DNA of 64,000 nucleotides, taken from positions 1-64,000 of the forward strand of contig JAQUTK010000005.1 in NCBI GenBank assembly GCA_028709785.1, in the 5' to 3' direction. This document shows positions 781 to 46,376 of this stretch, in pieces. Position 1 is the first letter of the stretch. Every line of letters begins with the position of its first letter. The stretch comes from Bacteroidales bacterium. Lineage in GTDB: Bacteria; Bacteroidota; Bacteroidia; Bacteroidales; JAQUTK01. A program made the position numbers and the translations under genes. Below the pieces are notes generated by a model, which worked only from the letters and a program-made list of their open reading frames with translations, was not told the DNA's origin and did no database searches.

Positions 781-886
781 CCAGATTAAAGAAATAAGCA
801 TTGAAAAATTTATGTGAGCTGTCCCAATTGGAATGCTTACTTTATGTATTTGATAGGTGAATAGATGTTGTGAAAATGGTCATTAA

Positions 887-1891: not shown

Positions 1892-1947
1892 AGGCCGTCG
1901 CCAAGAATGCATAAAACAGAATAGGAATAAATTTAAATCGAAAGAAA

Positions 1948-5647: not shown

Positions 5648-5808
5648 CATGATTTTAGTAAGAACTCTGTTAAGGATTAAAATTTTGACGATTTAAGATA
5701 AGCTATTATATACTGACGTTCAAATGTGATCCTTTTTGATAGACATAGAGGCGATTTTCTATTCATTGCAACTGTGGACAAATCAAAATCAGGAAAGACA
5801 AGCGATTC

Positions 5809-8181
5809 ATGAAAACTAAATATGTACGAAGTACCTTATCAATGAGAAGAGCGATACTCTTCCTTATGACTCTGTTTTTATCGGTAATCAATAGCTATTC
5901 GAAAGACTATTCCGGGACAGTTGTTGACAGTCTGACATCTGAAAAGATTGGCTTTGCGACAGTCTCTTTACTGAATCAGTCAGGAGAAAAGCAATTTATC
6001 GGGATAACAGATGATCAAGGTCGGTTTACAGCTACAATTCAAGAAGAGATAGCGTTCATAAAGATAAGTTTCATCGGTTATAAGACTATTGAACAAAGGA
6101 TTGATAATTTGAATGGCGCCGGCGATTTAGGAGTATTCAGGTTGGCTCCGAATGTTAGCCTGCTTGGCGAGGTGTCGGTTCAGGCAAATACCGTGGAACA
6201 TAAAGTGGACCGTACTGTACATGTAATTACTCCGGCTATACGCAAAGGAACTTTTACTGCGCCGGAGATGTTGGGTAATATTCTTGGTTTGAGATTTGAC
6301 CGGATCAATGACAAGGTATTGGTAAACAATAAATCGAACGTTCTGATTCTTGTGGATGGAATTCAGAAGTCTCAGGAATATGTAAACAGTCTGGATCCTT
6401 CCAGAATTCAGGAAGTTGAAATTGTCAAAGAGCCGACCGGGCGATATATTTCCGATGACTACTCGGCAGTGATCAACCTCGTTCTTATAAAAGAGTATGA
6501 AGGATATTGTCTCAATATGAGAAACTTGATGATTATCAGTCCTTCGGGTTCCAATGGGGATAACGGATTGGCAAATGAACAACCAAAAATTCTTTTCAAT
6601 TACACGAAGAACAGGTGGAATGTGTATGCCAATTATGTGTATGCCGATATTCATTGGAACTACGCAAACAGAATCCGAAAAACTTATTCTAATGTCATGG
6701 ATGTGACATCTGAGAAGGTAACCAGTAAGAATCCGAATGAAGACTATGATTACTTTGCTCATGCTGCTTCCGTGGGAATGGATTATCAGATTGCAAAAGA
6801 TCATTCGATCTCTATTCAGGATCGGTTCAGTTATGAGGATACCCGTACGGATCTTCTATATAACCAACAGGTTTCCTATCTGAAATCGGGATTGTCTGAA
6901 AATATCCGGCAAAGAACTTTGAATCAGGATTTGCGTAAGAATAACTCTGCAAGCATCTTTTATGTAGGGAAACTGAATGAGAGATTGACAACACACAGTG
7001 ATCTGACGTATGACTATTATTCCAGCGATTTGCATCACTTGTATGATCAGAACCGTAGTTTAACTCAGGATTATAAGTATGTCAATGCAAAGAACTATAT
7101 TCGTTTCAACGCGGATGCTGATTACATGATAGCATCCAACCTGAGTCTGAATAGTGGGTATACTTCTATCTGGAATAATTACAGAACGAAGGATTCAGTT
7201 GGCAACCAATTATCTCTGTATAATGAGTACAGGAACAGACTATTTGCCTACCTCTTTTTCTCACCAATTCAAACAGTTAGCGCAAAGGTGGGTGTTGCAG
7301 TTGAAAATCTCTATACAAAGAATCTCTCTTCTGAAAGGAACTATTGGGGGGTACTTCCTTTTGCTCAACTGAACTATGCTGCGCATCCAATGTTGAATCT
7401 GAATCTGAGTTACAACTCTTCTATTTCCTATCCCAGACTTTTTCAGCTGAGTCCTTCGAATTATGCTCTTGATTCTTTGATGATGCAGACGGGTAATCTG
7501 GGTCTGGTGCAAACGATGAATCACCAGACTCAACTCGAAATGACTTTCCTGCAATGTCTGACCCTTACTTCGACCTTTGCTTATTCTCCGAATGCAATCG
7601 AGCCGCTCTATTCCCTATCGGCTGGAAAGTATTATAGTACTTATGCGAATGTAAGTGGTCGTATGTTTGCTTTAGGATTGGATTATAATCAGTCATTGGG
7701 AGAGTTTCTGAACTGGAACTCTTCTGCCGGCTACTATAACGGCAAAGTCATGTACAATGGAACTCAGAATTCATGAAAAGTATGGACATTTAATTCTGCA
7801 TTGGAATGCTACCACCCGAAGCTTGGCTTGATGACTTCTCTGGAATATAATCGTACGATGAATAAATCGATTCTTCCCCAAGGGTATCGGATGGAAGGAC
7901 AAGATAGTTGGATGCTTACGGCAAGCAAAAAGTTCTGGAAAGATAGAGCTTCTTTGATGGTTTCCTATATCCTTCCCATTGATTGGGGTACTCGTATGAA
8001 ACAAGAATCGAAGATCAATACTCCTTTTTATCAGGAATATAACTCCCTGGATCTGAAAACGTATCACAACATGTTGTTCGTCCGTCTGAATATCCGCATC
8101 AACGGAGGCAAGAAAGTGAAACAGATCGAGAAACAAACAACTATTGAGAGTGAAGAGAAAAAAGGACGTGGTTTGTTTTGA
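5809..8181 (+). pseudogene. Outer-membrane beta-barrel receptor gene interrupted by an in-frame TGA
   Basis: One reading frame encodes about 790 residues but is cut by a TGA at 7774-7776; the same frame then stays open to the natural stop at 8179-8181. Part one (655 residues) has a signal peptide (best from Met12 at 5842), a carboxypeptidase-regulatory beta-sandwich (about 32-110), a TonB-receptor plug-like region (about 120-220, with VLILVDGIQ and a following VEIVKEPTGR) and most of a barrel of the outer-membrane beta-barrel family. Part two (134 codons) holds the last strands and a Lys/Glu-rich end. Without it the barrel cannot close. The likely cause is a nonsense mutation such as TGG to TGA, or a sequencing error. 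The gene stands alone and has no SusD partner. Its substrate is unknown. Confidence 0.8.
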
Positions 8182-16013: not shown

Positions 16014-17216
16014 ATGCTGAAAGGAAAGAAAATCGTTCTTGCCATCACCGGAAGTATCGCGGCCTATAAGGCTGCGCTACTGGTGCGGCTCCTGATCAAG
16101 GAAGGGGCTGAGGTGCAGGTAATCATCACGCCGGCCGGAAAGGAATTTATCACACCGGTGACTCTTTCCACACTCAGTCAGAAGCCTGTGCTTTGTGACT
16201 TCTTTACGGCGAACAGTGGGACATGGAACAGTCACGTGGATCTGGGCCTCTGGGCGGATGCTATGATTGTGGCTCCTGCCACAGCGAGCACGATCGGAAA
16301 GATGGCCAACGGTATTGCGGATAACTTTGTCGTTACGGCTTATCTCTCTTGTAAAGCACCTGTATTTGTGGCTCCTGCGATGGATCTGGATATGTTTTGC
16401 CATCCTTCCACTCAACGCAACCTGGATATATTGAAGTCGTATGGCAATCGGATCATTGAACCGACCAGCGGCGAACTGGCTAGTGGTCTGGAAGGGAAAG
16501 GGCGTATGGAGGAACCGGAGGCTATCGTAAGAGTGCTTCGGGAGTTCTTTACCACAGGTCAATCGCTTGCAGGGAAGCATATACTGATTACTGCCGGACC
16601 GACATACGAAAAGATAGACCCGGTACGTTTTATCGGAAACTATTCTTCCGGAAAGATGGGATTTGGATTGGCTGAGGTTTGTGCTGAAAGAGGTGCGCAA
16701 GTGACACTGGTTAGTGGTCCGGTGCAGCTCAAGACTTCTCATCCGCTGATCAAGCGGATTGATGTGGAGTCTGCCGGAGAGATGTATGAGGCATCCACGG
16801 AGGCTTTCAAACAGTGCGACGCAGCCATCTTATGTGCGGCTGTGGCAGACTTTATGCCGGCTTCTGCTTCGTCTGAAAAGATCAAACGGGGGAAAGATAG
16901 CCTGACTCTTCAACTGCAACCGACACAGGATATCGCGGCTGCTTTGGGGAAACAAAAAAGTGAGAAGCAGGTGTTGGTGGGCTTTGCTTTGGAAACCCAT
17001 GACGAGACTGTCAACGCGCTGTCCAAGATGGAACGGAAGAATCTGGATCTGATTGTCCTGAACTCACTCAATGACAAAGGGGCTGGTTTCAGGAGCGATA
17101 CCAATAAAGTGACAATCTTTGAACGCAGCGGGGCTGTCAAGGCTTATCCGCTGAAAGACAAGAGTGAGGTCGCGGCTGATATCATCGATGTATTGGAACG
17201 TCATCTTCAAAAATAA
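16014..17216 (+). CDS. coaBC: Phosphopantothenoylcysteine decarboxylase/synthase
   Basis: The bifunctional coenzyme A enzyme has 400 residues. The N-terminal flavin decarboxylase domain begins KKIVLAITGSIAAYKA and includes the active-site His segment NSHVDLGLWADA and VAPATAST. The C-terminal synthase domain begins near residue 185 with ITAGPTYEKIDPVRFIGN and SSGKMG. Together they turn phosphopantothenate plus cysteine into phosphopantetheine. It starts six bases after the exonuclease stop and is part of the dnaN operon. Confidence 0.97.
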   Translation: MLKGKKIVLAITGSIAAYKAALLVRLLIKEGAEVQVIITPAGKEFITPVTLSTLSQKPVLCDFFTANSGTWNSHVDLGLWADAMIVAPATASTIGKMANGIADNFVVTAYLSCKAPVFVAPAMDLDMFCHPSTQRNLDILKSYGNRIIEPTSGELASGLEGKGRMEEPEAIVRVLREFFTTGQSLAGKHILITAGPTYEKIDPVRFIGNYSSGKMGFGLAEVCAERGAQVTLVSGPVQLKTSHPLIKRIDVESAGEMYEASTEAFKQCDAAILCAAVADFMPASASSEKIKRGKDSLTLQLQPTQDIAAALGKQKSEKQVLVGFALETHDETVNALSKMERKNLDLIVLNSLNDKGAGFRSDTNKVTIFERSGAVKAYPLKDKSEVAADIIDVLERHLQK

Positions 17217-17225
17217 GCAGTGGTC

Positions 17226-18122
17226 ATGAAACGACGGATTGGTTTGTTTATCGCTTTCTTGCTGGCTTTCTCTGTGACACGGGCACAGGAACTGAATTGC
17301 ACGCTTACGATCAATGCCAACAAGATTCAGACAACGGACAAAGCTATTTTCCAGAACCTGCAAAACTCATTGAACGAACTGCTCAACAACCGGAGCTGGA
17401 CGGAGGCAAAGTTTACCGAAACCGAGAAGATCGATTGCTCGATCACGGTGATCGTCAACACCATGCCTTCTGAGAATCAGTTTAACTGTGAGATGCAAAT
17501 CTCATTGCGCAGACCTGTTTACAACACGTCGTACAACTCGCCGCTGTTTCAGTTTCAGGATAAAAACTTCAACATCAACTACCAGGACATGCAGCAGATA
17601 GAGTTTAATGAGAATAACATCACCGACAACATGACGGCGGTGCTCTCGTTTTATGTCTATGTGATTCTGGGATATGATTTCGATTCTTTTGCACCCATGG
17701 GCGGTGAAGCGCTGTTTCGGAAGGCGGAAGCGATTTCCAACGCGGCTCAGTCATTGGGAGAGGCCGGATGGAAAGCGTTTGAGAACGACCGCAACAGACA
17801 TGCGCTGATCACTGCCTTGCTGAATGAGAAATACAAGCCGATGCGCGAACTGAACTACAATTACCATCGGCTGGGAATGGATGAGCTGTCTAAAAACACC
17901 GATGAAACCCGCGCAAAGATGACGACTTACCTGAAGAAGCTTCTCGAGGTACAAAAGATTGATCCCATGAACGTCGTGCTTCAGGTATTTGTGGAGACGA
18001 AAGTGGATGAGATCGTCAATATCTACTCCAAAGCATCGCCTTCTGAAAAGAAAACAATCTTCGACATACTCTCACAGGTAGCTCCTACCCTTTCTGACCG
18101 CTACTCGTCGTTACAAAAATAG
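17226..18122 (+). CDS. DUF4835 family secreted protein (PorD-like)
   Basis: The product is 298 residues from the ATG at 17226; a GTG at 17220 is an alternative. A signal peptide ends near VTRAQ-EL, and ELNCTLTINANKIQ with INYQDMQQIEFNEN are typical blocks of this Bacteroidota-only family. It is probably periplasmic. The family is found between coaBC and recN in many genomes, as here, and from memory related flavobacterial proteins are called PorD in the T9SS literature. The T9SS link fits the sorting domains elsewhere in the window but is not shown by this sequence. No catalytic motif is seen. Confidence 0.85.
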   Translation: MKRRIGLFIAFLLAFSVTRAQELNCTLTINANKIQTTDKAIFQNLQNSLNELLNNRSWTEAKFTETEKIDCSITVIVNTMPSENQFNCEMQISLRRPVYNTSYNSPLFQFQDKNFNINYQDMQQIEFNENNITDNMTAVLSFYVYVILGYDFDSFAPMGGEALFRKAEAISNAAQSLGEAGWKAFENDRNRHALITALLNEKYKPMRELNYNYHRLGMDELSKNTDETRAKMTTYLKKLLEVQKIDPMNVVLQVFVETKVDEIVNIYSKASPSEKKTIFDILSQVAPTLSDRYSSLQK

Positions 18123-18126
18123 CTGT

Positions 18127-19785
18127 ATGATCAAGAGCTTATCTATCACAAATTACGCGTTAATTGCCTCTCTGGAGATTGAGTTTGAAGGTGGTCTTTC
18201 TGTGATCACCGGTGAAACGGGTGCGGGAAAGTCTATTTTACTGGGCGCGCTCTCGTTGCTTCTCGGACAACGGGCCGATGCCAAATCAATCCGCCAAGGT
18301 GCTCCCAAGTGTGTGGTGGAGGCTACGTTTGAGATTCAGGGTAACTCGCTGGATGGTTTCTTTGAGGATCAGGAGCTGGAAATCATCGACGGGGAATGTG
18401 TGATCCGCAGAGAAGTGCAGGCCAACGGCAAATCACGGGCTTTTATCAATGATACGCCGGTCTCTCTGGCTGTACTGAAAGAGCTGACGGATCAACTGAT
18501 CGATATTCACTCCCAGCATCGCAACCTGTTTCTTGCAGATTCGCTTTTTCAACTGAACGTGGTGGATATTGTGGCGGCACATCCCGAAACGCTGGCAAGC
18601 TATGCCCGTGCTTTTAAGGAGTTCACCGAGGCCGGCAAGGTATTGGCCGAACTGCTCTCGATGGCTGAGAAGAGCAATGAAGAGAATGATTATCTGACGT
18701 TTCAGTTTAACCAGCTGGATGAGGCAAAGTTACAGTCTGGCGAACTGGAGTTGCTGGAGGAAGAACAGATAATGCTCTCCCATGCGGAAGAGATCAAGAG
18801 TGCTTTGTTTGGCGTGGATGAGCTCTTTTCCGGCGAAGGGTTCAATGTATTGAGCTCCTTGCATGAGATCGTTCGTTCGATTCAGAATGTGGAGTCCTTC
18901 CAACCCAACGTAAAAGAGCAACGTGATCGTCTGGAGAGTAATCTGATCGACCTCAAGGATATTGCTTCCGAACTGAGATCCATTCAGGAGAAGGTTGAAT
19001 ATAATCCCGAGCGACTACTCTTTATCAACGACCGGCTCGACACGATCTACTCGCTGATGAAGAAGCACAAAGTGGACAGTGTGGATGAGTTGGTTGCGCT
19101 GCACAAGGATCTGGGCAAACAGTTGGAGAAGTTTTACTCGCTTGAGCAGGAGATTGTGGACGCAAACAAACAGTTGGAGAAAGCACGGAAAGCTCTCGCA
19201 ACGATTGCCACACAGCTCACTGAAGAGCGGAAACAGTCTGTTCCACGTATCGAGAAACAGCTGGTGGAGACCTTATTGCAATTGGGTATGCCGCATGTTC
19301 GTCTCAAAGTGGAACTCACGGCTCATGAACCGGACAAGACCGGAGCGGACACTGTCTCTTTCCTCTTCTCTGCCAATAAGAATGCACCACTGCAACCGAT
19401 CGGTGATATTGCCTCGGGTGGTGAAGTGGCCCGGGTCATGCTGAGTCTGAAAGCACTGATTGCAGGGGCTATCTCATTGCCTACGATTATCTTTGACGAG
19501 ATTGACACCGGCGTATCCGGCGAGATGGCAGGCAAGATGGCAACGATCATGCAGCAGATGGGTAAAACCATGCAGGTTATTGCGATCACGCATCTCCCGC
19601 AGATCGCAGCGAAAGGAAGCACGCACTACCATGTGTACAAGGAAGACACCGAACTGGATACCATTACACACATCCGTACACTGGACAGCGACGAGCGTGT
19701 TCGTGAGATCGCGCAGATGCTGAGTGACGGTGTCATAAGCGAAGCTGCGATCAATAACGCGCACTCGCTGCTGGATAATAAATAA
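18127..19785 (+). CDS. recN: DNA repair ATPase RecN
   Basis: The 552-residue SMC-like protein has Walker A TGETGAGKS (28-36), a long coiled-coil middle (about 160-370), the ABC signature IASGGEVARVMLSLK and Walker B TIIFDEIDTGVSG. Length and motif order are those of RecN, which acts in double-strand break repair. It starts five bases after the DUF4835 stop, and a terminator directly follows its stop, so it closes the dnaN operon. Confidence 0.97.
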   Translation: MIKSLSITNYALIASLEIEFEGGLSVITGETGAGKSILLGALSLLLGQRADAKSIRQGAPKCVVEATFEIQGNSLDGFFEDQELEIIDGECVIRREVQANGKSRAFINDTPVSLAVLKELTDQLIDIHSQHRNLFLADSLFQLNVVDIVAAHPETLASYARAFKEFTEAGKVLAELLSMAEKSNEENDYLTFQFNQLDEAKLQSGELELLEEEQIMLSHAEEIKSALFGVDELFSGEGFNVLSSLHEIVRSIQNVESFQPNVKEQRDRLESNLIDLKDIASELRSIQEKVEYNPERLLFINDRLDTIYSLMKKHKVDSVDELVALHKDLGKQLEKFYSLEQEIVDANKQLEKARKALATIATQLTEERKQSVPRIEKQLVETLLQLGMPHVRLKVELTAHEPDKTGADTVSFLFSANKNAPLQPIGDIASGGEVARVMLSLKALIAGAISLPTIIFDEIDTGVSGEMAGKMATIMQQMGKTMQVIAITHLPQIAAKGSTHYHVYKEDTELDTITHIRTLDSDERVREIAQMLSDGVISEAAINNAHSLLDNK

Positions 19786-27959: not shown

Positions 27960-30137
27960 TTACAGAACGATCGTCACAAAAACACCTTGCGGACTGTTTT
28001 CAAAGGTCAGTTTGCAGGTCTTTGAGTTCTCGTCCCACGCATGCTTTGCCTCGGGCATGTCAATGCCCTGCGCATCCTTAACAATGATCTGTTTCGGTTC
28101 AGCATTCAGCAAAATGCGCATCACATTGGTGGTCTTCACCGGACTCTTCGCCACAAAGGAGTAGCGTCCATCCCTGATCTTCTCTTCATACACACGGGCA
28201 GCAGTAGCCAACACCTGCGGTTGTTTTTTGTTTGGGACACGGGCAAGATCATACAGGAAAGCCTTCATACCGGGTGTGACTACCTTTTCAGCCAGCACCG
28301 GCAGTTCGGGGTCAAACAGATCAATCACCGGACCTTTTACCACATAAGGCTTCGTATCGCTGTTCTCATCCATGACGGAAACGATATCAAAAGGACCTCT
28401 CTCCAAGTAAAAATGATTCTTGAAAGATAACGAACCGGCTTTCGCAGCCATCTCGTAGGCCTCTTTCACGCGACTGACAAACAGTTCATCACCGTTCTTT
28501 TCGAGCACATACTCCTTCGGATTCTGTCGAAGCACATACACAGTGCCTTTCCCAAAACTATATTTCCCTTCAGCAGCCTCAGCCTTCATATGCATCAGTT
28601 TGAAAAGATGTTCGGAGGGTGTCTTATACTGGTTACCCTTGGTATTCCACCACTCCTGAACAGTCTGATACGGATCATTATCTCTGGCACAGTAGATGAT
28701 CACTCCTCCTTTATGCACCCAATCGGCCAGCTGTTGATGACTCTCTTCGGTCGCCGGTTTCATGTTGGAATAGCTCATGATAAGCACCTTGATATGCTTC
28801 AGCGACTCCTTGTAGCCCAGATTCTCAATATGCACCAGTTCGACAGGAACTCCCTTTTTCAGCAAAGGGAAGGTCTGTCCGTAGAAGTTCGAAAACTGCG
28901 GATCATCGTAGCTGTTATGTGTCGGGAAGCGTTGAAACATCAGAGAGTTGGACATCAGAACGCCAATCCCCTGCGCACCATTGACCCGATTGGAAGATAC
29001 AGGCATCTGGTTCAACGCATTGACCATCACCATCATCTTGGTCGAATAGTAACGGGGGATCAGGATCCGTTCGTTGCTTCCTGCCACCGGATAGGTTCCG
29101 GTAAAGATACGTTCCGGCCAGGGCATCACCTCATAATCAGCCACACCCGGATAAAGCAGTTTGGCGGTAAAAGTCGCCTCATAGTTCCGTTCGTAGTCCT
29201 TCCAGTCTTTGTTTGGATTATCTTCAATGGGGTCGGTCAGGAAAAAGATCTTCCGGTGTGTCGGAGCAGTCATGGAGACCATCGAACCATATTCCAGAAA
29301 AGCATTCTCAAAGACCCGTTCTTTCCGTTCGCCGTTGTAGAAGGTTGGTTCGCGGGAAGTGCCGGTCCACACCTGCGCGATATAGCCGTCGATGCCGGGT
29401 AACGAGGCCAGACTTGCCTCCGGACTCACAATACTCCACGAAGAGTAGTTGACCAGCGAATGGGTGGGGATATATACTTTCACCTCTTTCCCCACGCTTT
29501 TTCCATACGCCTTTGCATAGTTGGAGACTTCCTTCAAAGCGTTGTAATAGAGGTGATACTTCAATTTATTGGCCAGATAGGTATTCTCAGGCGATTCATG
29601 CTGCGCGCGCCAATCAAAGCCATAATAGGCTTTCCACTCCTTTTTGAAAGACTCGCTATAACCTCCACGCGCCCAGAACTCAGGCTCTTCCAGATAAATA
29701 TCACAAATGCCTGCGTCAATCACTTTCTTGATATGTGCTTCATTCATGTATTTGATAAAATTCACTGTGGGAACAATGTAAGGAACCATGCGCCCATGCC
29801 AAATGGTATCCCCGTTTTGAGTCACCTGTCCCTCGTCCAGATGCCACTTGCCGTCCCACTTGCCGGTAAAATAATCCTGATATTCTCCCCAGGCAATTCC
29901 CGTCATGAAATGAGTCTGATAATCGTGCTCACGCCATGAATCGACACGTTGCTGAAAAGTCATGCCGGTGCGATCGTTGGCACCATAGACGATCGCTATA
30001 TCCGAACGGACATCGATCTCCGGTCTCCATGAACTTGAGGTTTGAAACGCGGTCTTTTGAAGAGCCGTTTGAGCAAAGGTTGTACCGCCTGAAAGCAATA
30101 GCAGTGCGATACAACAGGTACAATTTGTATTTTTCAT
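27960..30137 (-). CDS. Large secreted protein of unrecognised family, possible glycosidase
   Basis: The product is 725 residues from the ATG at 30137, which leaves 13 bases after the GH32 stop. A signal peptide ends near TTFAQ-T. Residues about 45-350 look like an alpha/beta barrel: DIAIVYGAND, then CDIYLEEPEFWARGGY (145-160, with E150, E151 and E153 as possible catalytic acids), then DGYIAQVWTG. Residues about 420-530 resemble the glutamine-amidotransferase-like domain of GH42-type beta-galactosidases (GIGVLMSNSLMF, KVLIMSYSN, WVHKGGVIIY). The end is beta-rich. Its place as last gene of a glycan operon supports a sugar-related role. No known family is claimed. Confidence 0.7.
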   Translation of the reverse strand: MKNTNCTCCIALLLLSGGTTFAQTALQKTAFQTSSSWRPEIDVRSDIAIVYGANDRTGMTFQQRVDSWREHDYQTHFMTGIAWGEYQDYFTGKWDGKWHLDEGQVTQNGDTIWHGRMVPYIVPTVNFIKYMNEAHIKKVIDAGICDIYLEEPEFWARGGYSESFKKEWKAYYGFDWRAQHESPENTYLANKLKYHLYYNALKEVSNYAKAYGKSVGKEVKVYIPTHSLVNYSSWSIVSPEASLASLPGIDGYIAQVWTGTSREPTFYNGERKERVFENAFLEYGSMVSMTAPTHRKIFFLTDPIEDNPNKDWKDYERNYEATFTAKLLYPGVADYEVMPWPERIFTGTYPVAGSNERILIPRYYSTKMMVMVNALNQMPVSSNRVNGAQGIGVLMSNSLMFQRFPTHNSYDDPQFSNFYGQTFPLLKKGVPVELVHIENLGYKESLKHIKVLIMSYSNMKPATEESHQQLADWVHKGGVIIYCARDNDPYQTVQEWWNTKGNQYKTPSEHLFKLMHMKAEAAEGKYSFGKGTVYVLRQNPKEYVLEKNGDELFVSRVKEAYEMAAKAGSLSFKNHFYLERGPFDIVSVMDENSDTKPYVVKGPVIDLFDPELPVLAEKVVTPGMKAFLYDLARVPNKKQPQVLATAARVYEEKIRDGRYSFVAKSPVKTTNVMRILLNAEPKQIIVKDAQGIDMPEAKHAWDENSKTCKLTFENSPQGVFVTIVL

Positions 30138-30150
30138 CGATTTATATAGA

Positions 30151-31962
30151 TTAGTCCTTCCATTCATTCCTCCTTTTAAAGGAGCTCTTCTTTTCAGTGT
30201 CCGGTAAGTTCTTTTGTTTCGGGAGCTTCCAGATGGATTGAAGTTCGTATCCTTCCAACACCTTAAACTTCACATTACCCCCTGTAACACTGACTTTCAT
30301 GGAAAGATTCTGAGGATCCGGGAACAGTGGCATCGGCACATATACCAACCCGTCGCTCGCAAACACTTCCAAAGCAGTCCGGTCCGCATAGACAATGATC
30401 TGTTGACGTCCATTGACCAACGGTGCATGCACACGCTCTCCATTGACTGTCAGTTGCTGCGTTGCGGCATCATACGTGATCGCTATGCCGCGTACCTCAA
30501 AAGAGGTGGTTGAAGTTGGTTCCGGTATAAAAGACGCCCTGAGCTCCAGCAGTTCACCCTTCACCTTTGCAAGCGGATTGGCATCAGCCGGATGAAGTTC
30601 CAACTTCCCAAGGCGATAACTTTTCGCACGTAATCGTTTTAATTCAGCCACCGGTGTCCAGCTCAACCGTGGACCTTCGGCAGTAGGAAGAAGCTTCAGT
30701 TCGAGGGGCAACGACATTCCCTGGTTGAAGGGCATGCCGACGGTTCTCATTTGAAGCCATCCGATCTGAACGATCCGTCCCTTCGGCTCATTCGAGAACG
30801 TTTGCGCCGCATAAAAGCCTCTTCCCTGATGTCCTTTCAGCAGAGGAGTCTGAGGAGTGAACGTCTTTCCATCAAACGTCCCCAACATGTACTCACTGCT
30901 TGCGCCGGTCAGCACCCACAGTTTCTTTCCTTGGCAGGACAGTTCAAAGAAATCAGGACACTCAAAGAATCCCGGAATTCTGCTCTGGTAGGTCCAGTTC
31001 TTCAGATCGGGAGAGGTAAAGAAGTTGAAGTATCGTTCATCACCGATCTCATCATAGACCACATTTACCCAACATTTCGCAGGTTCGTACCACAACGGAC
31101 GGGGATCCCGGTTGGCACGTGTGATGACAGGATTAGCCGGATACTCCTGAAAAGTCCGTCCCTTATCATTGGAATAGACCAGACACTGGCCACGTCCGGT
31201 GCTGGTGTAGGTCGCAACAATCAACGAGTTCTTACCCATTCGCAGACCGCTGGTATTCTTTTTATCCACCACCGCTCCTCCACTGTAAGCCATATCACCA
31301 TATTTATAGCCGTGTATGGCTATCGGCAGTTCTTCCCAATGCACCATATCTTTGCTGACAGCATGTCCCCACGACATGTTTCCCCACTCCCATCCATAGG
31401 GATTATGTTGAAAATAGAGATGATATTCGCCATCGGCATAGACCATTCCATTCGGGTCATTGTTCCATCCCCGGCGGGGAGAAAAATGAAGCTGCGCACG
31501 CAGCGGTTCGCTGTACACCTGCTCTTCGTTCCAGATGGAATCCGATTGAATGATCCGATCCAGAGCTTTCAGGTTGTCTGTGGCATTCTCCACACGGACA
31601 ATCACCTTCTTATGCAGCCATTGGCTCATATCCAGATGCGCATACCAATCCGGATTCTCCACCATATTCATGTCAAACTCGCGAACTGCCGCGCCATCGA
31701 CAAGAACGGATACATGCTTTCCTCCTTTTTCTTCTGTATATTTGAGAGGAAATAACAGATATCTTTTCGAAATCATCAGTTCCTTTTCAAGGGTTCCAAC
31801 CGTTGTTTCAGATACTCCACTTTGAACAGGTTGCTCTACTTGAAGAGGCTTTCCGGCAACAGACGACGTTGCAGAAAAACAAGCTGCAGATGGCTGCAGA
31901 AATAGAATGAGGAACAAACAAACAGCGTGGCTGTTTGAGAATAGAGGTGTGTTTGCTTTCAT
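30151..31962 (-). CDS. Secreted GH32 fructan hydrolase
   Basis: The 603-residue protein has a signal peptide, then an N-terminal beta domain (about 45-145) of the kind found before GH32 in Bacteroidota, then the five-bladed propeller. The GH32 triad is visible: nucleophile D169 in GWNNDPNG, the RDP motif at 285-287, and acid/base E334 in FFECPDFFE. A beta-sandwich occupies the C-terminus. GH32 enzymes cleave beta-fructosides such as levan, inulin or sucrose. Here it is embedded among mannosidase genes instead of a fructan locus with SusCD. It lies 84 bases after the epimerase gene and 13 before the next. Confidence 0.93.
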   Translation of the reverse strand: MKANTPLFSNSHAVCLFLILFLQPSAACFSATSSVAGKPLQVEQPVQSGVSETTVGTLEKELMISKRYLLFPLKYTEEKGGKHVSVLVDGAAVREFDMNMVENPDWYAHLDMSQWLHKKVIVRVENATDNLKALDRIIQSDSIWNEEQVYSEPLRAQLHFSPRRGWNNDPNGMVYADGEYHLYFQHNPYGWEWGNMSWGHAVSKDMVHWEELPIAIHGYKYGDMAYSGGAVVDKKNTSGLRMGKNSLIVATYTSTGRGQCLVYSNDKGRTFQEYPANPVITRANRDPRPLWYEPAKCWVNVVYDEIGDERYFNFFTSPDLKNWTYQSRIPGFFECPDFFELSCQGKKLWVLTGASSEYMLGTFDGKTFTPQTPLLKGHQGRGFYAAQTFSNEPKGRIVQIGWLQMRTVGMPFNQGMSLPLELKLLPTAEGPRLSWTPVAELKRLRAKSYRLGKLELHPADANPLAKVKGELLELRASFIPEPTSTTSFEVRGIAITYDAATQQLTVNGERVHAPLVNGRQQIIVYADRTALEVFASDGLVYVPMPLFPDPQNLSMKVSVTGGNVKFKVLEGYELQSIWKLPKQKNLPDTEKKSSFKRRNEWKD

Positions 31963-37886: not shown

Positions 37887-39005
37887 TTAATGTTCCGATT
37901 GTCCGGGAATCTCCGGAACACCCGGATCATCCAAAACTTGTACGCTGGTTACCGGACCAAAAGTCTTCCAATCCTGCAAAACCCATACTACTTTCTTATC
38001 ACGAGTTACCTCTACCATTTGCGGGCCATTGCCATCATTGTCGCCTCGTGACGTGAATATGGTATTACCATTGGCCAAACGGGTACAAGTCTGCGGAGCA
38101 GAGGCAAAACGGTACGCTTCAGGCAGATCATTTTTGGTGCTGAATTGCCAGACGGTATCTTTTTTGGAATTAAGTTCGACAGTAAGGTTATCGGCCTCAT
38201 TGGTAATTAAGGTATTGCCATTCTTAAGACGAAGTGATGACCAAGGCTGTTTGCAATTCACTCTCCAAATCTCATTAAAGTTTTTGTCGTATTCGGCTAC
38301 ATAACCCAGTCCGAAAACCGAAATAAGGTAGGTTCCCTGTGCTGTGATACGAGCCCGTCTGTATTGACCGTGAATACCATTCGGATTTGCCGGTAAGGTA
38401 TAAGGAAGTTCATGCTCTACCTCTGTTTTTCCTGTTTTGATATTGACAATCATCAATTTAGGTGGCAAACCATTGACAATAAACATAACCTTATCCAGAC
38501 CAATGGGCTGACAGGTATGGATTTCTGTATGTTCAGGACTGCCTGGGGCCGTTTTACAATCATATCGCCATATTACTTTCTTATCCGGAGTAATCTCAGC
38601 AATGTATTCCTGGCGGGTAAAAAGAATATTACCGTTAGAAAGCATCCACACATCATCATATTCATAACTTTTGCCGGTGGAATAGCTCCAAATCTCTTTG
38701 CCATCTTTAATGAGGGACATTTTGTCGTAATTCTCTCCCACTACCAACATGGGATGTTGCGCCAGTCCCTTGCCGGGTAAATTGGGCGGAGTTACTCCTT
38801 TCACCCAATTACCAACCGGAGCATAAGTTTCGTCCGGACCCATAGCGGGCACGTTGGGTGCTGTAAAGAGATGAAGTACATCCATACAAAGTGTCGAAGT
38901 GGATTTATCTGTTGATATATCCGCTGCTTTTATGTTCTTTTGTGCCGGGAGAGCGTTTGAAAGAAGCATTAAAGCCAGAACAAGAAAGGAACCATTTTTG
39001 TTCAT
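37887..39005 (-). CDS. Secreted PQQ-like beta-propeller protein A
   Basis: The product is 372 residues from the ATG at 39005, with a signal peptide ending ALPAQ. Repeating strands of the form KEIWSY, SNGNILFT, KKVIWRYD, NGNTLIT and NGNTIFTS indicate a six- to eight-bladed propeller of the PQQ-repeat or arylsulfotransferase-like kind. No PQQ-dehydrogenase heme or calcium site is evident. It is paralogous in pattern to the protein at 40662, with the GH28 gene between them. It might bind or modify a glycan in the periplasm; function is not assigned. Confidence 0.8.
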   Translation of the reverse strand: MNKNGSFLVLALMLLSNALPAQKNIKAADISTDKSTSTLCMDVLHLFTAPNVPAMGPDETYAPVGNWVKGVTPPNLPGKGLAQHPMLVVGENYDKMSLIKDGKEIWSYSTGKSYEYDDVWMLSNGNILFTRQEYIAEITPDKKVIWRYDCKTAPGSPEHTEIHTCQPIGLDKVMFIVNGLPPKLMIVNIKTGKTEVEHELPYTLPANPNGIHGQYRRARITAQGTYLISVFGLGYVAEYDKNFNEIWRVNCKQPWSSLRLKNGNTLITNEADNLTVELNSKKDTVWQFSTKNDLPEAYRFASAPQTCTRLANGNTIFTSRGDNDGNGPQMVEVTRDKKVVWVLQDWKTFGPVTSVQVLDDPGVPEIPGQSEH

Positions 39006-39084
39006 AATCAAATCTTTTTTGTGTAAATATTAAAGCGAAAAGACCTCTATTTCATTACAATTGGATATTTCCAGGCATATTCTT

Positions 39085-40578
39085 TTATTTTTTATTCATG
39101 ATTTGCTTTACAATCTTGTCGCAATCTTCCATGATCATTTCATCGCGAGGATCTGTACATTTCAGCTTAAATTGAATATTATACAGCTGAAGGTTATCAA
39201 TATACCGAAGGTATAAGCCATAAGTCGATAGGTTCCCAAACGTGTCCGGTGACGGATAGCCGGGTTTTCTTTCTTTCAGCAACTTAAACATATCCGTGTT
39301 TCTGTCTTTGGCATTTCCGGGATAAGCTAATTCTATGTGTATGTTTTTGAGTGTTATGTTACTAATCCGGTGCTCATTATCTAATCCGGTGACAGAAGAA
39401 GATATCGGACCGGCTCCTGTAGCTGTTACATTTGATATCAGGATGTTATTGATCGTTCCTATTCCCGGTTTGGGTGCTGAGTCTGTATGTTTTCGGTTAC
39501 GGTTGCCCAGCGTCACAAAAATAGGTGTTACACAGTCTGTTGATTCAATGGAGTCAAACCAAATATTTTCCATCACTCCACCGTCGGTAATGATGAGTGT
39601 TATGGCTGTTCGAGTCGTTTCTGTCCCGTTTACAAAGTGACGACCGGTGCCCGATTGAACCACTTTACAATTGCGATAGATGATATTCTTATATCCCCCT
39701 GTTGACTCTGTGCCCAGTTTTAATGCGTTGCAATGGCTTGACGCAGTACAGTTTTCAATCAGGATGTTTTCACAGGCGGAAAGTCCGTTGCTCTTTAAAC
39801 AAATGGCATCGTCATCACTGTCTATGCGACTATTGCGAACATACACATTACGACATCCATCAATATCGATTCCATCGTTGTTTTGGTGAGCATGATTAAA
39901 TACAGTGATGTTTTCAACCATTACATTCTCGCAATCAAGATAATGTTGTAACCACTGAGCTGAATTCATAAGCATCAAACCGCTTACATAAATATTTTTC
40001 GAACTCACAATTCGTATTCCAAAGGGACGGCGTGGATCGTTATTACCTGTAGGCCAATAAATAGGATTCGTACCCTGAAAATCAATGATGCCTTTACCAG
40101 TAAATGAGATTCCATCTACATTCTCCGCATAGAAAAGGGATTTGTCCACCTGTCGGTCGGTATTGTTTTTATAGGCGGGCATGATAACCAGATAGTCTTT
40201 GGGATCTGCACTACCCAGTATTTTAGCTCGTTTATCCAGTTCAATATGTACGCCCGATTTAAGTACGAGTGTCCCCGTGAGGTAAACTCCTTCAGGAAAG
40301 AATACACGTGCCGGACCGATCTTCGAACAGCTATCAATGGCATTTTGTAATTGTTTGGTGGTAATGGTAAGTCCGTTGTTGATTGCTCCAAAATCCTTTA
40401 CTACATCTAATACAGGCAACTGATTGTGACTGACAGCAAGCGACTTCTCAAGCTTTTGGGACATGTTCTCAAGATTAGCAGCTAATTTTAGATGATCAAA
40501 CGTATTCTTTTGAGCTGAAGCGCTGTTTATAAATAAGATCAGCAGACAGATGATAGCGGTTTTTGATTGGGTATTCAT
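39085..40578 (-). CDS. GH28 polygalacturonase-family protein
   Basis: The 497-residue secreted right-handed parallel beta-helix. GH28 motifs: NNDGIDIDG (233-241), SDDDAICLK (254-262, with the paired Asp) and SSHCNALKLGTES (280-292), which replaces the usual GHG with SHC while keeping the His. The start, VVKDFGAINNG, and FFPEGVYLTG are typical of pectin-acting family members. GH28 hydrolyses alpha-1,4-galacturonan or rhamnogalacturonan backbones by inversion. Pectin activity is unexpected in an operon rich in mannosidases. It lies 83 bases after propeller B. Confidence 0.9.
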   Translation of the reverse strand: MNTQSKTAIICLLILFINSASAQKNTFDHLKLAANLENMSQKLEKSLAVSHNQLPVLDVVKDFGAINNGLTITTKQLQNAIDSCSKIGPARVFFPEGVYLTGTLVLKSGVHIELDKRAKILGSADPKDYLVIMPAYKNNTDRQVDKSLFYAENVDGISFTGKGIIDFQGTNPIYWPTGNNDPRRPFGIRIVSSKNIYVSGLMLMNSAQWLQHYLDCENVMVENITVFNHAHQNNDGIDIDGCRNVYVRNSRIDSDDDAICLKSNGLSACENILIENCTASSHCNALKLGTESTGGYKNIIYRNCKVVQSGTGRHFVNGTETTRTAITLIITDGGVMENIWFDSIESTDCVTPIFVTLGNRNRKHTDSAPKPGIGTINNILISNVTATGAGPISSSVTGLDNEHRISNITLKNIHIELAYPGNAKDRNTDMFKLLKERKPGYPSPDTFGNLSTYGLYLRYIDNLQLYNIQFKLKCTDPRDEMIMEDCDKIVKQIMNKK

Positions 40579-40620
40579 ATACTGTTTTTAAATGGTCGTT
40601 TTGTAAGGAAAAAGAGTAAG

Positions 40621-40633
40621 TGACAGGTATCTG
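40621..40633. repeat. 13-base repeat TGACAGGTATCTG, copy in the GH28 leader
   Basis: Same 13 bases as 46431-46443. It lies 42 bases before the GH28 start codon on the minus strand and is flanked by AGTAA and TTTACT, which are complementary. Possible regulatory site. Confidence 0.35.
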
Positions 40634-40661
40634 CAATTTACTGTTTCTCGTCGTGTATTTG

Positions 40662-41693
40662 TCAGTGTATCTCTCCAAACTTAACTTTCTCTGTCGTACG
40701 TGGTTCACTTAAAGGCACAATAATGGTGGAAGGACCCAGATTAGCCGGTTCGTCCCAGGCACGCAGCGCCCAAACGACCTTCTTATCCGGTGTTACTTCA
40801 ATCGCCTGAAGAGGTAGATTGTTTTTATCGAGTTTATCACCCCATTGATTAAACCAGTTGCCGATCAGCGTATTGCCATTCGCCAGACGGATAGAGACCT
40901 GCGGGGAGTTTATCACATAGTCGGCTGTAGCCTCAAATGGATATTCCCATACCACCTCAGACTTACTGTTTACTTCGAAGACTTTATTTCGGGTGGTAAT
41001 CAATATGTTTCCGTTTTTATACGATTCAACGCCCCATACTCCCGGTGCTTCGATGGTGCGAAGTTGGTTGCCTTTGGAATCATATTCCTTCACTTTACCC
41101 ATATCCATGTGGGCTACCAGGAGCGTTCCTTTTGAGGTAAGACGGGCATGACGCAACTGACCATGCGTACCGGTCGGATTACCGGTTGGTATCGGCAATT
41201 CCTTGATTATCTTGCCTGACTCCTTATTGATAACCACAATCTTGGCAGGATTACTGCTTTGCACAAACAGAACCAATTTTTTACCTATTGCCTGAGCGGT
41301 ATGAATCTCGGTGCCTTCGGGTGCGTCATACTTCCACAGAACCTTCTTATCCTGACTAACTTCGGCGATCCCATACTGATGGGCAAAAAGAATGTTTCCA
41401 TTTGAAAGCATCATCGCATCGCTTATTTCTCCTTTACCATCGTGCGTATACGACCATACGATCTTACCATCGCGGACGATGTACATATTTTCCTGTTTGG
41501 CTTCACCGGCATAAAAGAAATCAAAGTGTGACAAACCATTGCCGGGCAAGAGTGCCGGTGCGAATGGTTTCACTTTTGTCGAAGCAGGTTCCTGGGAGAT
41601 AGCTTGGTGGCAAAGTCCAAAAGCAAAAACAGGAATAAGTAATCCCATTTGCAACTGAGACCTGAAAGCGGAAATCATCGTGGTTGTTTTCAT
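40662..41693 (-). CDS. Secreted PQQ-like beta-propeller protein B
   Basis: The 343-residue protein has a signal peptide (about 1-34). Blade strands IVWSYTHDGKG, LSNGNILFAH, KKVLWKYD, TEIHTAQAIG, KNGNILITT and LANGNTLIGNW repeat through the chain, matching protein A in layout, including TEIHT and GTHGQLRHARL / GIHGQYRRARI. The pair therefore arose by duplication. It lies 28 bases after the DUF362 gene. It resembles PQQ-repeat and arylsulfotransferase-like propellers, but no catalytic residue can be named. Confidence 0.8.
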   Translation of the reverse strand: MKTTTMISAFRSQLQMGLLIPVFAFGLCHQAISQEPASTKVKPFAPALLPGNGLSHFDFFYAGEAKQENMYIVRDGKIVWSYTHDGKGEISDAMMLSNGNILFAHQYGIAEVSQDKKVLWKYDAPEGTEIHTAQAIGKKLVLFVQSSNPAKIVVINKESGKIIKELPIPTGNPTGTHGQLRHARLTSKGTLLVAHMDMGKVKEYDSKGNQLRTIEAPGVWGVESYKNGNILITTRNKVFEVNSKSEVVWEYPFEATADYVINSPQVSIRLANGNTLIGNWFNQWGDKLDKNNLPLQAIEVTPDKKVVWALRAWDEPANLGPSTIIVPLSEPRTTEKVKFGEIH

Positions 41694-41721
41694 GAGTCAG
41701 ATAGTTTATTAAATAGTACTT

Positions 41722-43455
41722 CTATTTGGTTCCTAAAGGGATATAAATAAATTCGATGCCACGACCCTTCTTCGGATCCAGGTTTCGGGAGTATTTCATC
41801 TCACTATCATTGTTCCAATGTTCGAAGGTACCCAGACTCTTAACAGGCTTGCCATCTTGCACATACTTCGTTCCTGATGGTGCCTGATCGGGAATAGCCA
41901 TTTCGCGAAGGAAATCATCCGCATTCTCACGCACCAAGATACGTGGTACATTGTGATAGGTCGGTTCGGTGTTGTTCTTGCTTTGAGCATATAGGATGTC
42001 AAGTCCCACAGACTGTATCGCAACGCCATCGAGTGAAGCCAGCATACAGGAAGGCCATTCCGGATTTTCATAAGGAATCACCTGATTGTTGAAAGGAGGA
42101 TTGGGGAAATGGAGCGGGTACGTACGCCATTTGCGTCCGCAATACAAGCCGTCCAACATATACAATATGGTCTTTCCTCCCAGATTAGGGGAAGCAGCCA
42201 GGTCGACCAGTGGAGAATACGCATTCTTCTTTCCTTCCTGTTTGGTGTTCAATATGGAGTGCAATTCAGGTGTGCCTTTTATCGAACCGGCATGATTCTT
42301 ACCGGTCATCGTCACGGCCGTCTGACCTTCATCACCATCTTCCATATAATTATAAGGATAAGAATGCAATTTCAACATGGCCATATTGATCAGGTATGTC
42401 GCGTCTTTAATCTGACGGGGTATCAGTTTGGCTTCCTTGTAATTGACGGCTGAATAGCTGACACCTTCCACCCAATCGGCAGCTTCGATACCGTGATGAT
42501 CGCCATAAGCCGGGTTCAATGGTTGGTTCTTCGTTGCAGGATCTTGTTGCAGAAAACGAACATCCTTAAACTCTTTCCAAACTGTGGTCAGCATCGCAGG
42601 ATAGAAGTTACGCCGTACATCGTAAATAATAATATTGTTTTGAGGAACTTTCGCCTCATTGACCAACTGTCGTACCATGGCCAAAACCATCTGTGGAGAT
42701 GCATCGCTCTGATTGTCCTTTTTCGTATCGCTGCTGTTGTTCAGATTAACCTTCAGCGCTACAACCTCACCGACCATATATTTCCGGTTCTTCAGGTTGC
42801 GGAAGTTTACATTGTAATAGGTAAAGATCTTATTCCAGGCTTCCTTGTCTTTACGTGTGCCTGTGAGCTTTTGCAACGTGACAGACATCATCTCGCTGAT
42901 TACATTCACATCCGTATTCTTATCCAACCACCACTGATCTTCTTCCTTTTTCCAGTTACCGGCCCATTTGCAGGCCTTCGGATTGCGTGCCATAACGACA
43001 CGACCCGGATAGATGCCCTGAGCAACTCCGATAGGCTGATTAGAGGGTCCCGGCTGCCAGTCATATCCCACTGCAGGTTCAAAAGGTTTGTCATCAGCAG
43101 TAGCAGCCAGCGCTTCCATGATGCCTGAGGGCAGTACCATCAGCCATCCGATCAACACAACGGAAGAAGCAATGCCACAAACGGTTACAATCATACGGTT
43201 TGAAGCAAATTTCTTCCCCAGCTTTTTGAAAGCAAATAAGCTTGAGAGTGTTGCTGTGAGCCAGATGACAAAGGCACTGGCAATAGGAAATGCTGCTTGC
43301 TGACAGGGGTATGAAGCTCTGCTTGGTTTTGGTATCACTCGTATGAGGAACCAGATCAACGCCGCCAAACCAATGATTATCGCTGAAGTCTTATTCCAGA
43401 GTTTAAACAATGGAAGCGATAGTTTTACCAGAATAGAATGAAAAGTCTGTTTCAT
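41722..43455 (-). CDS. Membrane-anchored DUF362 protein
   Basis: The product is 577 residues from the ATG at 43455; the frame extends upstream but that part lies before the promoter candidate. Three hydrophobic segments (about 17-35, 47-68 and 80-100) anchor it. A soluble domain from about 115 onward contains the DUF362 block: VVALKVNLNN, IIIYDVRR, ATYLINMAMLKLHS, GMTGKNHAGS-like TMTGKNHAGS and HNVPRILVREN. The DUF362 family often carries 4Fe-4S clusters; no CxxCxxC cluster motif is seen here. Its role in a glycosidase operon is unknown. It may be first in its own transcript. Confidence 0.82.
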   Translation of the reverse strand: MKQTFHSILVKLSLPLFKLWNKTSAIIIGLAALIWFLIRVIPKPSRASYPCQQAAFPIASAFVIWLTATLSSLFAFKKLGKKFASNRMIVTVCGIASSVVLIGWLMVLPSGIMEALAATADDKPFEPAVGYDWQPGPSNQPIGVAQGIYPGRVVMARNPKACKWAGNWKKEEDQWWLDKNTDVNVISEMMSVTLQKLTGTRKDKEAWNKIFTYYNVNFRNLKNRKYMVGEVVALKVNLNNSSDTKKDNQSDASPQMVLAMVRQLVNEAKVPQNNIIIYDVRRNFYPAMLTTVWKEFKDVRFLQQDPATKNQPLNPAYGDHHGIEAADWVEGVSYSAVNYKEAKLIPRQIKDATYLINMAMLKLHSYPYNYMEDGDEGQTAVTMTGKNHAGSIKGTPELHSILNTKQEGKKNAYSPLVDLAASPNLGGKTILYMLDGLYCGRKWRTYPLHFPNPPFNNQVIPYENPEWPSCMLASLDGVAIQSVGLDILYAQSKNNTEPTYHNVPRILVRENADDFLREMAIPDQAPSGTKYVQDGKPVKSLGTFEHWNNDSEMKYSRNLDPKKGRGIEFIYIPLGTK

Positions 43456-43528
43456 GTTTGTAACTAATTTAAGAGAAGTGTTTCTGTGATTGAAAAAAGA
43501 TATTGTAAAAAAACATACATGTAAAGAA

Positions 43529-43574
43529 CAACAATCACACACTTCCACAGAGATGCAAAAGTATGTGATTGTTG
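43529..43574. promoter_or_regulatory. Perfect 11-bp dyad overlapping the DUF362 promoter candidate
   Basis: CAACAATCACA at 43529-43539 and its exact reverse complement TGTGATTGTTG at 43564-43574 flank the minus-strand -7 box, 24 bases apart. The geometry suits an operator for a dimeric regulator; TGTGA/TCACA halves are CRP-like in sequence. Confidence 0.55.
43556..43563 (-). promoter_or_regulatory. Candidate -7 box (TACTTTTG on the minus strand)
   Basis: Plus-strand CAAAAGTA. It lies about 100 bases before the DUF362 ATG, in the 173-base gap after the GH2 gene. Suggests an internal promoter for the genes from DUF362 to the end of the operon. Confidence 0.5.
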
Positions 43575-43628: not shown

Positions 43629-46376
43629 TTATTCTCCGAATTTAAAATAGATCTTTCCTACGAAAAGTGTTCCGTCGCAGAGGTTCTTGGCTCCCTGCGG
43701 ACCTTCCTCATTGGCTTGCGAAAACTTCGTACCAATGGGACTGATGGTATTCAGTATCGATATAGAACCCGTTGGGAAAGGTGGATAGACACCCCCGGTA
43801 GACTGTACCGGCTTTTCCGGGGTAAAGAGATGCAGGAACAACTCTTTTGTCGCAGAGACGATGGTGATCGGCAACTCTCTTGTTTGTATCTTCACCGCAT
43901 AGAAATTGGAGTAATATCCTTTAAATTCGGGATAAATCCAGGTCTGTCCGGTAATCGTGTTATTGTATTCTTTTTCGTACACACCAAACTGAGTTCCTCT
44001 CAATCTATTCTTCCAGACATGATACGGACCGTTTGCCATCAGAGTGGCTCCTTTTACCTCACTTTCCGGATAGGAGAAGGTGATGCCGGTATAATCGAAA
44101 GAGCCCTTCGGACTGTATTGATACTCCAACTGCAACCATCCACCCCGAAGCATTGTCCACTTCGCATGGCAGATAGAGTCATAGACTAATTCAACGACAG
44201 TGCCATTGGGTGCTGCGTAGTGTTTCAACTCTTTGAAGGTGGTAGTAAAGCCCGCAAATTGAGGTCCGTTAGTAAAGGATATTTTCTTTCCATTCGTAAC
44301 AACCTCCGAAATCAACCCGTTGTTTTTGTTGAAAGTAACGGATGTCTTTGCCGATTGTACCGTTAGAAATCCATCCCGATCACTTACCTCTACCTGATCG
44401 TTGCTTTCAGACACAAGTTGCGTTGCCATTGTCGCGGGAGTAGTGATATTCCAGGACCAGGTATTTATGTGTCGCTTGTAGCGGTCGGTTGCGGTAATGT
44501 AAAGCGCGTCATACTGTTTCCAGTCTGACGGCAATTCCAGTTTCAGCAATCCGCTTTCACCCGGCGCTACTGAAGGTGCTTTCATCGTTCCGGCCTGCTT
44601 CTGCATTTGCAGTTTAGTAAATGGCTGTTTGAATTTAACCAGTTCGTATGAGAAGGTACACTGATTCAGATTGCTATATAAGAAACGATTGCTTATATTT
44701 AAGCTCCCATTAAAGTCGGCAGGTAAAGTTGTCTGCTTGAATTGAACCGGCGACCATATCTCTTTGATGGTATAAAAGCTTCCCTCCTTCTCGTGATGCG
44801 GTCCTACAATACCATCGGGCGCCAGATTGCCCCGTGTGTCGATGGAATCATTCTTATCTCTGCGTACCACACCCTCATCGGCAAGCACCCAAAGAAAACC
44901 TCCCGCCGAAAGCGGTTTAGAGAGCATTAAGTTCCAATAATCATCCAATCCGGCACCATGACCCCCGTCATAAAGTCCGTGCAGGAACTCTGTCGGGAAA
45001 TAGACCGTATTCCCTTCGTTCAGCGCATTATACACATAACCATATTTGGGATAATGCTTCGTATCCGTATCATTGACTTTCGACCACGGTTCGATCACCA
45101 TTCGCTGTTGAGGATCATACAGGGCATAGTCACCCCGCGCCTCTTTATTAAAGCCCCCTTCATTGCCATTGTCCCATACGACGATGGAAGGATGATTGAC
45201 ATCGCGTCTGACCATATCTTTGATCAGTCGTTGAGCCGTCGGTGTATCGTAGAATTTCTGCCATCCCGCCAGTTCGTCGAGCACAAACAAACCGAGTGAG
45301 TCACACACATCCAGAAAATATTGATCGGGTGGATAATGGCTCATACGCACCGCGTTCATATTCATATCCTTAATCAGATTGACATCATCAATGGCCAATG
45401 CTTTGCTGCTCGTACGACCGGATTCCGGCCAAAAGGTATGTCGGCAGACCCCACGAAACAGGATCTTTGTACCATTTACATAAAAGCCATCGGCAGGTCT
45501 GAGTTCCACCGTACGGAAACCAAACTTCTGCGTATATTGATGTGTAACCGTCTTCCCCTTCTTCAGCAGCACTACAACCTGATAGAGGTTGGGATCTTCC
45601 GGATTCCATAGTTTGGAATTTGCAATCGTGCCTTTGAGTGTGTACTTTTGATCCTCTGCTTGCACATTTGTAGTCAACAGTTCACCCACCTTCGTTCCAT
45701 CCAATGTCTGAATCTGAGCCTCCACAGAATTCTTTTGGGTAGCATCTTGAACAAAAACATCCATATAAAACGAGCCGCTGGCTTTGGCGTCAATGGCAAC
45801 ACTCTCTATATGCGATGCGGAGGTTGCTTCGAGATATACCGGACGGAAGATACCACCAAACACCCAATAATCAGCAATTCGTTCGGCTCTGTTTATACTC
45901 TCATTGGCTGATTCCTTACTGACCGTTACTTCCAACAGGTTCTCCTTCTTATAATCCAGCAGATTGGAAATATCATATTTAAATCGATAAAAGGCGCCTT
46001 GATGAATCGGACCGGCCAACTTGCCATTGATCTTTACTTCGGTGTCGGTCATCGATCCTTCAAAAACGATCTGTACTTTCTTGTTCTTCCACTGTTTGGG
46101 AACGGTAAACTTGTAGGAATAGAGTCCCTTTTCATCGTTTTTGGGTTTATCATGGCCATAGTTATAGGCACCGAAACCTTGTTGTTCCCATTGAGAAGGA
46201 ACTTGAATCGTCGTCCATTTATTGGAATTCATACCACCGGTACAGAAAAAGTTCCAAACCACCGTATGGTCTTTGTCGGTTCCTGAAAGGTATTGAACTT
46301 CGGTTTTCTGAGCACCGGCAAATCCGGCAAACAGCAGCAGCAAACAGAGCATTTGATTTCTTCCGAGAGTCTTCAT
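43629..46376 (-). CDS. Secreted GH2 beta-galactosidase/beta-glucuronidase-like enzyme
   Basis: The 915-residue enzyme has a signal peptide ending FAGAQ. Order: jelly-roll sugar-binding domain (about 30-185), Ig-like domain (185-290), GH2 barrel (about 290-560) and two further beta domains. The likely acid/base is E406 in VWDNGNEGG and the nucleophile E463 in FPTEFLHG. NAVRMSHYPPDQYFLDVCD is the standard GH2 segment. The sugar removed could be galactose, glucuronate, mannose or arabinose; family alone does not say. First gene of the left operon, with its own promoter candidate at 46471. Confidence 0.92.
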   Translation of the reverse strand: MKTLGRNQMLCLLLLFAGFAGAQKTEVQYLSGTDKDHTVVWNFFCTGGMNSNKWTTIQVPSQWEQQGFGAYNYGHDKPKNDEKGLYSYKFTVPKQWKNKKVQIVFEGSMTDTEVKINGKLAGPIHQGAFYRFKYDISNLLDYKKENLLEVTVSKESANESINRAERIADYWVFGGIFRPVYLEATSASHIESVAIDAKASGSFYMDVFVQDATQKNSVEAQIQTLDGTKVGELLTTNVQAEDQKYTLKGTIANSKLWNPEDPNLYQVVVLLKKGKTVTHQYTQKFGFRTVELRPADGFYVNGTKILFRGVCRHTFWPESGRTSSKALAIDDVNLIKDMNMNAVRMSHYPPDQYFLDVCDSLGLFVLDELAGWQKFYDTPTAQRLIKDMVRRDVNHPSIVVWDNGNEGGFNKEARGDYALYDPQQRMVIEPWSKVNDTDTKHYPKYGYVYNALNEGNTVYFPTEFLHGLYDGGHGAGLDDYWNLMLSKPLSAGGFLWVLADEGVVRRDKNDSIDTRGNLAPDGIVGPHHEKEGSFYTIKEIWSPVQFKQTTLPADFNGSLNISNRFLYSNLNQCTFSYELVKFKQPFTKLQMQKQAGTMKAPSVAPGESGLLKLELPSDWKQYDALYITATDRYKRHINTWSWNITTPATMATQLVSESNDQVEVSDRDGFLTVQSAKTSVTFNKNNGLISEVVTNGKKISFTNGPQFAGFTTTFKELKHYAAPNGTVVELVYDSICHAKWTMLRGGWLQLEYQYSPKGSFDYTGITFSYPESEVKGATLMANGPYHVWKNRLRGTQFGVYEKEYNNTITGQTWIYPEFKGYYSNFYAVKIQTRELPITIVSATKELFLHLFTPEKPVQSTGGVYPPFPTGSISILNTISPIGTKFSQANEEGPQGAKNLCDGTLFVGKIYFKFGE

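Follow-up and report, generated by a model that had tools for sequence, protein, structure and literature searches.

A membrane-anchored DUF362 protein with a predicted LarA fold and a recurrent beta-propeller partner in a Bacteroidales glycosidase locus

The DUF362 protein encoded within a run of glycosidase genes of a Bacteroidales bacterium has, with good support from its structural model, the fold of the lactate racemase LarA, and its partnership with a particular type of beta-propeller is likewise well supported, by computed genome comparisons. As to the reaction, the explanation that we tentatively favour is that the DUF362 protein would be an exported acid/base enzyme of LarA fold that does without the nickel-pincer cofactor and acts on glycans, and that the propeller would be a partner, shared with other enzymes, for binding the substrate.

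The window is the whole stretch of DNA analysed, 64,000 nucleotides in length, and all coordinates refer to it unless a locus is named. Its relevant features are:

63422 to 27960, minus strand: run of 20 consecutive genes, almost all glycosidases, with short or negative gaps
43629-46376, minus strand: GH2 enzyme, immediately upstream of the DUF362 gene
41722-43455, minus strand: DUF362 protein, 577 residues from the ATG at 43455, with membrane anchor and predicted LarA-fold domain
43108-43452, minus strand: predicted membrane anchor, residues 2-116, from the helices in the model, with the motif PKPSRASYPC
42259-42366, minus strand: putative LarA-like core motif, residues 364-399, with H364, K386 and H399, from hhalign and conservation
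40662-41693, minus strand: PropB, predicted secreted beta-propeller of 343 residues
39085-40578, minus strand: GH28 glycosidase between PropB and PropA (PF00295, 1.4e-21)
37887-39005, minus strand: PropA, paralogue of PropB (the ORF caller's TTG start is at 39011)

Along the minus strand the core order is GH2-DUF362-PropB-GH28-PropA, with gaps of 28-173 bp between adjoining genes. The DUF362 ORF as called spans 41722-43548 from a GTG start; we have taken the ATG at 43455. The NCBIfam model nearest to the GH28 gene is that of rhamnogalacturonidase BT4146, with a score under the cut-off. The whole run comprises five GH43 genes (most with CBM6), two GH27, GH5, an esterase-like gene, GH2, DUF362, PropB, GH28, PropA, two GH76-like genes, GH92, an aldose epimerase, a GH32-like gene and a 735-residue protein. 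A sequence-only reading of the window had named the DUF362, PropB, GH28 and PropA genes and set them within a glycosidase operon; the ORFs and Pfam matches place all four where it put them and on the same strand, and the run of 20 genes bears out the setting. The two propellers, which it took for paralogues split by the GH28 gene, are 40% identical over 314 residues. By inspection, each of the four proteins has a predicted signal peptide or membrane anchor. The 735-residue protein at the operon end (27960-30167), which is apparently exported, has no match in Pfam, NCBIfam or the PDB sequences. The G+C content at 1-6000 is 0.31-0.34, against 0.40-0.52 over the remaining window.

The DUF362 protein scores 24.7 bits against PF04015, just over the cut-off of 24, and we regard the assignment as real though marginal. 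Three helices in the model (residues 2-40, 50-83 and 87-116), with which the hydropathy peaks concur, precede the DUF362 domain and confirm the three-helix anchor seen in the sequence-only reading. From the helix pattern, with the N-terminus and a KKLGKK loop both predicted inside, the LarA-fold domain (residues about 139-577) would lie outside the cytoplasm; other DUF362 relatives include secreted fusions. The anchor motif PKPSRASYPC is found in 55 ORFs with a DUF362 domain match and in two further ORFs. This motif or a close variant, P-K-P-S-R-A-x-Y-P-C, is common to DUF362-type proteins whose soluble domains are barely similar; it was noted at 43108-43452 of the window and in loci L055, L056 and L057, and its conserved Cys lies between helices 1 and 2. 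Some long relatives (L045, 9332-12316; L051, 2449-5508; L052) have C-terminal extensions with ends resembling type IX secretion tails, and tandem DUF362 genes occur among the relatives. An iron-sulfur cysteine cluster occurs in some DUF362 members, and the Pfam model does not require one. The window protein has none, its five cysteines being scattered with no CxxC, just as the letters had first been read, and an iron-sulfur redox protein is therefore rejected.

The DUF362 protein of the window was modelled from 63 sequences, with a mean pLDDT of 91 for the domain. The best Foldseek match of the model is malate racemase (E 3e-3). On re-alignment with VIA, each of the top 11 rows is a lactate racemase, a malate racemase or a LarA-like enzyme, with Z between 12.6 and 14.5 over 208-222 residues at 3.0-3.7 Å, and the next row beneath them has a Z of only 4.6. 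The model thus gives good support to a LarA (lactate racemase) fold for the domain. A sequence profile search of the PDB with the DUF362 profile returned nothing at E up to 10, and the link to LarA therefore surfaced only in the comparison of folds. DUF362 and the LarA family belong to one Pfam clan (PMC11770544).

An alignment of the 84-sequence DUF362 profile with LarA by hhalign in local mode (in global mode the alignment is meaningless) gives E 0.0079 against 0.17-0.35 for decoys, which is weak taken alone and agrees with the fold match. It would place H364 on LarA His174, which is catalytic, and K386 on Lys184, the residue to which the nickel-pincer cofactor is bound as a tether (PMC12611868). 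H399 falls 13 residues past K386, beyond the aligned stretch, and is perhaps the counterpart of the nickel ligand His200, which in LarA follows Lys184 by 16 residues. All three residues are invariant in the 84 relatives (84/84). In the same alignment the first catalytic histidine of LarA, His108, falls in a gap beside Arg282, and the nucleotide-binding Asp and Arg of LarA are not kept.

Across 84,980 genomes, searching by profile yielded 80 loci, of which 33, including fragments and nearly all at ≥54% identity, form a close group and 47 are more distant. A propeller is fused or nearby in 10 of the 33 close loci, as a C-terminal fusion to DUF362 in six (L062, L064, where it is split, L065, L066, L071 and L073) and as a neighbour in four (L058, L069, L075 and L084). 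No propeller is nearby in 23/33 close loci, some of them cut by contig ends, nor in any of the 47 distant ones. Within the window's order, this propeller clade, defined by E ≤ 1e-100 and well separated from the next class, which lies near 1e-57, occurs in 9 of 393 genomes and the DUF362 type in 44 of 393; all nine genomes with the propeller also hold this DUF362 type. When the window's own genome is left out the co-occurrence is 8/8 (P = 1.1e-8), and in seven of these eight genomes the two are fused or less than 250 bp apart. The eighth genome, G570, has its propeller fused to GH28 and its DUF362 gene on a separate contig. The pairing of DUF362 and propeller is beyond chance, and its recurrence elsewhere, on which the sequence-only reading had staked its case, is borne out by neighbourhoods and co-occurrence alike. 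Propellers of the looser, 3no2-like class, of which the window's own genome also has one, act as a control: in the fetched neighbourhoods none was found beside DUF362 except the second propeller of L034.

Fusions with the propeller at the N-terminal side of DUF362 are found in L049, L050 and L220. They and the C-terminal fusions fall in different halves of the DUF362 tree, a split that is strongly supported, and no fewer than seven changes of the fusion label are required along that tree; the fusions have independent origins, in both domain orders. The propeller is also fused to GH28 (L219, 8613-11153), to GH88 (L034, 5061-7268) and to GH2 (L069, 11396-15421, the same record as L217), which makes it a shared module and more than a partner of DUF362. 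The order of genes in the window sets most of these fusion partners side by side. Attachment to several enzymes is typical of binding modules, and one explanation is that no new chemistry is involved, the propellers being carbohydrate-binding or scaffold domains and DUF362 a protein that binds or anchors substrate. DUF362-CBM9 proteins, which link the family to carbohydrate, were reported from lignocellulose metagenomes in 2017 (PMC5742341) and fit such a role. However, K, N, H and D residues that are fully conserved across many phyla exceed what binding or anchoring would need, and the known members of the LarA fold are enzymes; we consider this explanation unlikely.

Both propellers score above the cut-off of 27.5 bits for the Mala_s_1-like family PF22701, PropB at 58.1 bits and PropA at 27.6 bits. 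The conserved set of PropB consists of E89, D92, E129, H131, Q134, H177, Q179, R181, W220 and Q265. Among 15 DUF362-type propellers there is no variation at D92, E129, H131, H177, R181, W220 and Q265 and next to none at E89, Q134 and Q179, and PropA retains most of the patch. Whether the propellers have a pocket had been raised in the earlier reading; the invariant polar patch across the DUF362-type propellers answers to it, and the positions of its residues at the blade starts suggest that they line one. The natural DUF362-propeller fusion of L065 was modelled with a pLDDT of 89.6; the linker between its domains is predicted to be disordered, so that no fixed interface is seen. The closest solved structure to its propeller domain is 3no2 (Z 30.6, 25% identity).

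That the propeller itself is the catalyst, acting either as a lyase or as an arylsulfotransferase-like transferase, with DUF362 assisting, would account for the invariant E/D/H/H/Q/R/W/Q patch. Arylsulfotransferases are the next structural matches after 3no2, at Z 22-23, but unrelated NHL and WD40 propellers score barely less (about 20). The match to the arylsulfotransferase family PF14269 is weak, at 15.7 bits under a cut-off of 27, no arylsulfotransferase came up when the PDB was searched with the propeller profile, and the catalytic His of these enzymes has no mapped counterpart. None of the uronic-acid lyase propellers PL22, PL24, PL25 and PL42 is among the 50 structural matches listed, a listing too short to count against them. 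The enzymes to which the propeller is attached already possess active sites of their own, and a catalytic propeller seems to us improbable.

In the close group, the genes lying up to 3 kb from DUF362, given as raw counts with no matched background, include GH2 (8), GH28 (4) and GH115, PL6-like, PF05426 lyase and GH88 genes (3 each); GH2 genes recur beside DUF362 in related loci. The glycan-degradation setting with uronic-acid enzymes nearby that had been read from the window is upheld by the GH28, GH88, GH115, PL6-like and PF05426 neighbours, and the several enzymes acting on uronic acids suggest a substrate of that class. A gene for a 3-keto-disaccharide hydrolase (PF06439) lies 4 bp from DUF362 in L071 (7824-9149) and L121 (3159-4988) and 64 bp from it, between PropB and DUF362, in L075 (838-1932); in L069 (7201-9807) the domain is within a GH27-like ORF that overlaps DUF362. 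These positions suggest a redox reaction, in which the LarA-fold domain with a tethered cofactor would take a hydride from a sugar hydroxyl and the resulting keto-sugar would be cleaved by the hydrolase; hydride transfer is how LarA enzymes work (PMC12611868). However, PF06439 is present in only a few of the 80 loci, a weak enrichment, and the run of 20 genes in the window has none; nor is any dedicated electron acceptor seen, for which reasons we give the redox reaction little credence. In L231 a GH109-type Gfo/Idh/MocA oxidoreductase (16788-18236) is on the same contig, past a regulator and FtsX-like permeases.

In the host genome, which is 99.8% complete, neither LarA nor LarC finds a match, and the sole LarB match, at 46 bits against a cut-off of 175, is probably a PurE-like paralogue. 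With these genes absent and the DUF362 protein predicted to be exported, a nickel-pincer cofactor in it is unlikely. That the protein is nevertheless a true nickel-pincer (NPN) epimerase of the LarA type, for which the fold, the aligned Lys and His and the presence of LarC in the hosts of some relatives (Verrucomicrobia, Acidobacteria) could be cited, is very improbable given its predicted export and the lack in the alignment of counterparts of His108 and the nucleotide-binding residues, and with the synthesis genes LarB and LarC missing from the host it is rejected.

We return to the acid/base enzyme that we tentatively favour, its substrate and reaction being assigned from gene context. The surrounding glycosidases would release glycan fragments, on which the exported, membrane-tethered DUF362 protein would act. 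It appears to retain the tethering Lys of LarA, one catalytic His and a second invariant His, with which it may carry out acid/base chemistry without the nickel-pincer cofactor, most likely the abstraction of a proton beside a sugar carboxylate, leading to epimerisation of a uronic acid or to beta-elimination. The oxidation, desulfation-type or lyase step put forward in the sequence-only reading likewise stands as a proposal. The propeller would be a dedicated partner with affinity for the DUF362 protein's class of substrate and, since it is fused to such enzymes in other bacteria, may help to present it to GH2, GH28 and GH88 enzymes as well as to DUF362.

In the open-access literature we found no characterised DUF362 protein of the window's type and no description of the DUF362-propeller pairing. 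It is possible, though we rather doubt it, that the LarA fold has an exported branch which acts on glycans with no nickel-pincer cofactor, shares a propeller module with GH2, GH28 and GH88 enzymes and constitutes a new class of carbohydrate-active enzyme, be it an epimerase, a lyase or an oxidoreductase. Were this so, an uncharacterised family of many phyla would acquire a fold, a partner and a set of candidate catalytic residues, and a step so far missing from the breakdown of complex plant glycans may lie with it. An enzyme of LarA fold that lacks the organometallic cofactor would also bear on the evolution of cofactor use.

Among known systems, the LarA superfamily, the Lar_N family (PF09861) of which shares a Pfam clan with DUF362, is the closest to the DUF362 domain in its fold, in the aligned tethering Lys and catalytic His174 and in providing the best structural matches. 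The window protein differs in being predicted to be exported, in its membrane anchor and its place within a glycan locus, and in lacking counterparts of both His108 and the nucleotide-binding Asp and Arg. The nearest relative of the propeller, 3no2 (BACCAC_01654 of Bacteroides caccae), keeps the HxQFR motif but has Asn at D92 and Gln at H131. The arylsulfate sulfotransferases (ASST, Cpz4) resemble the propeller as its next-best structural matches, yet stand little above the general propeller background, with PF14269 below its cut-off. Pfam DUF362 (PF04015), including the DUF362-CBM9 proteins, shares with the window protein a family match just over the cut-off and a link to carbohydrate, whereas the window protein is without iron-sulfur cysteines and is distinguished by its membrane anchor and its dedicated propeller partner.
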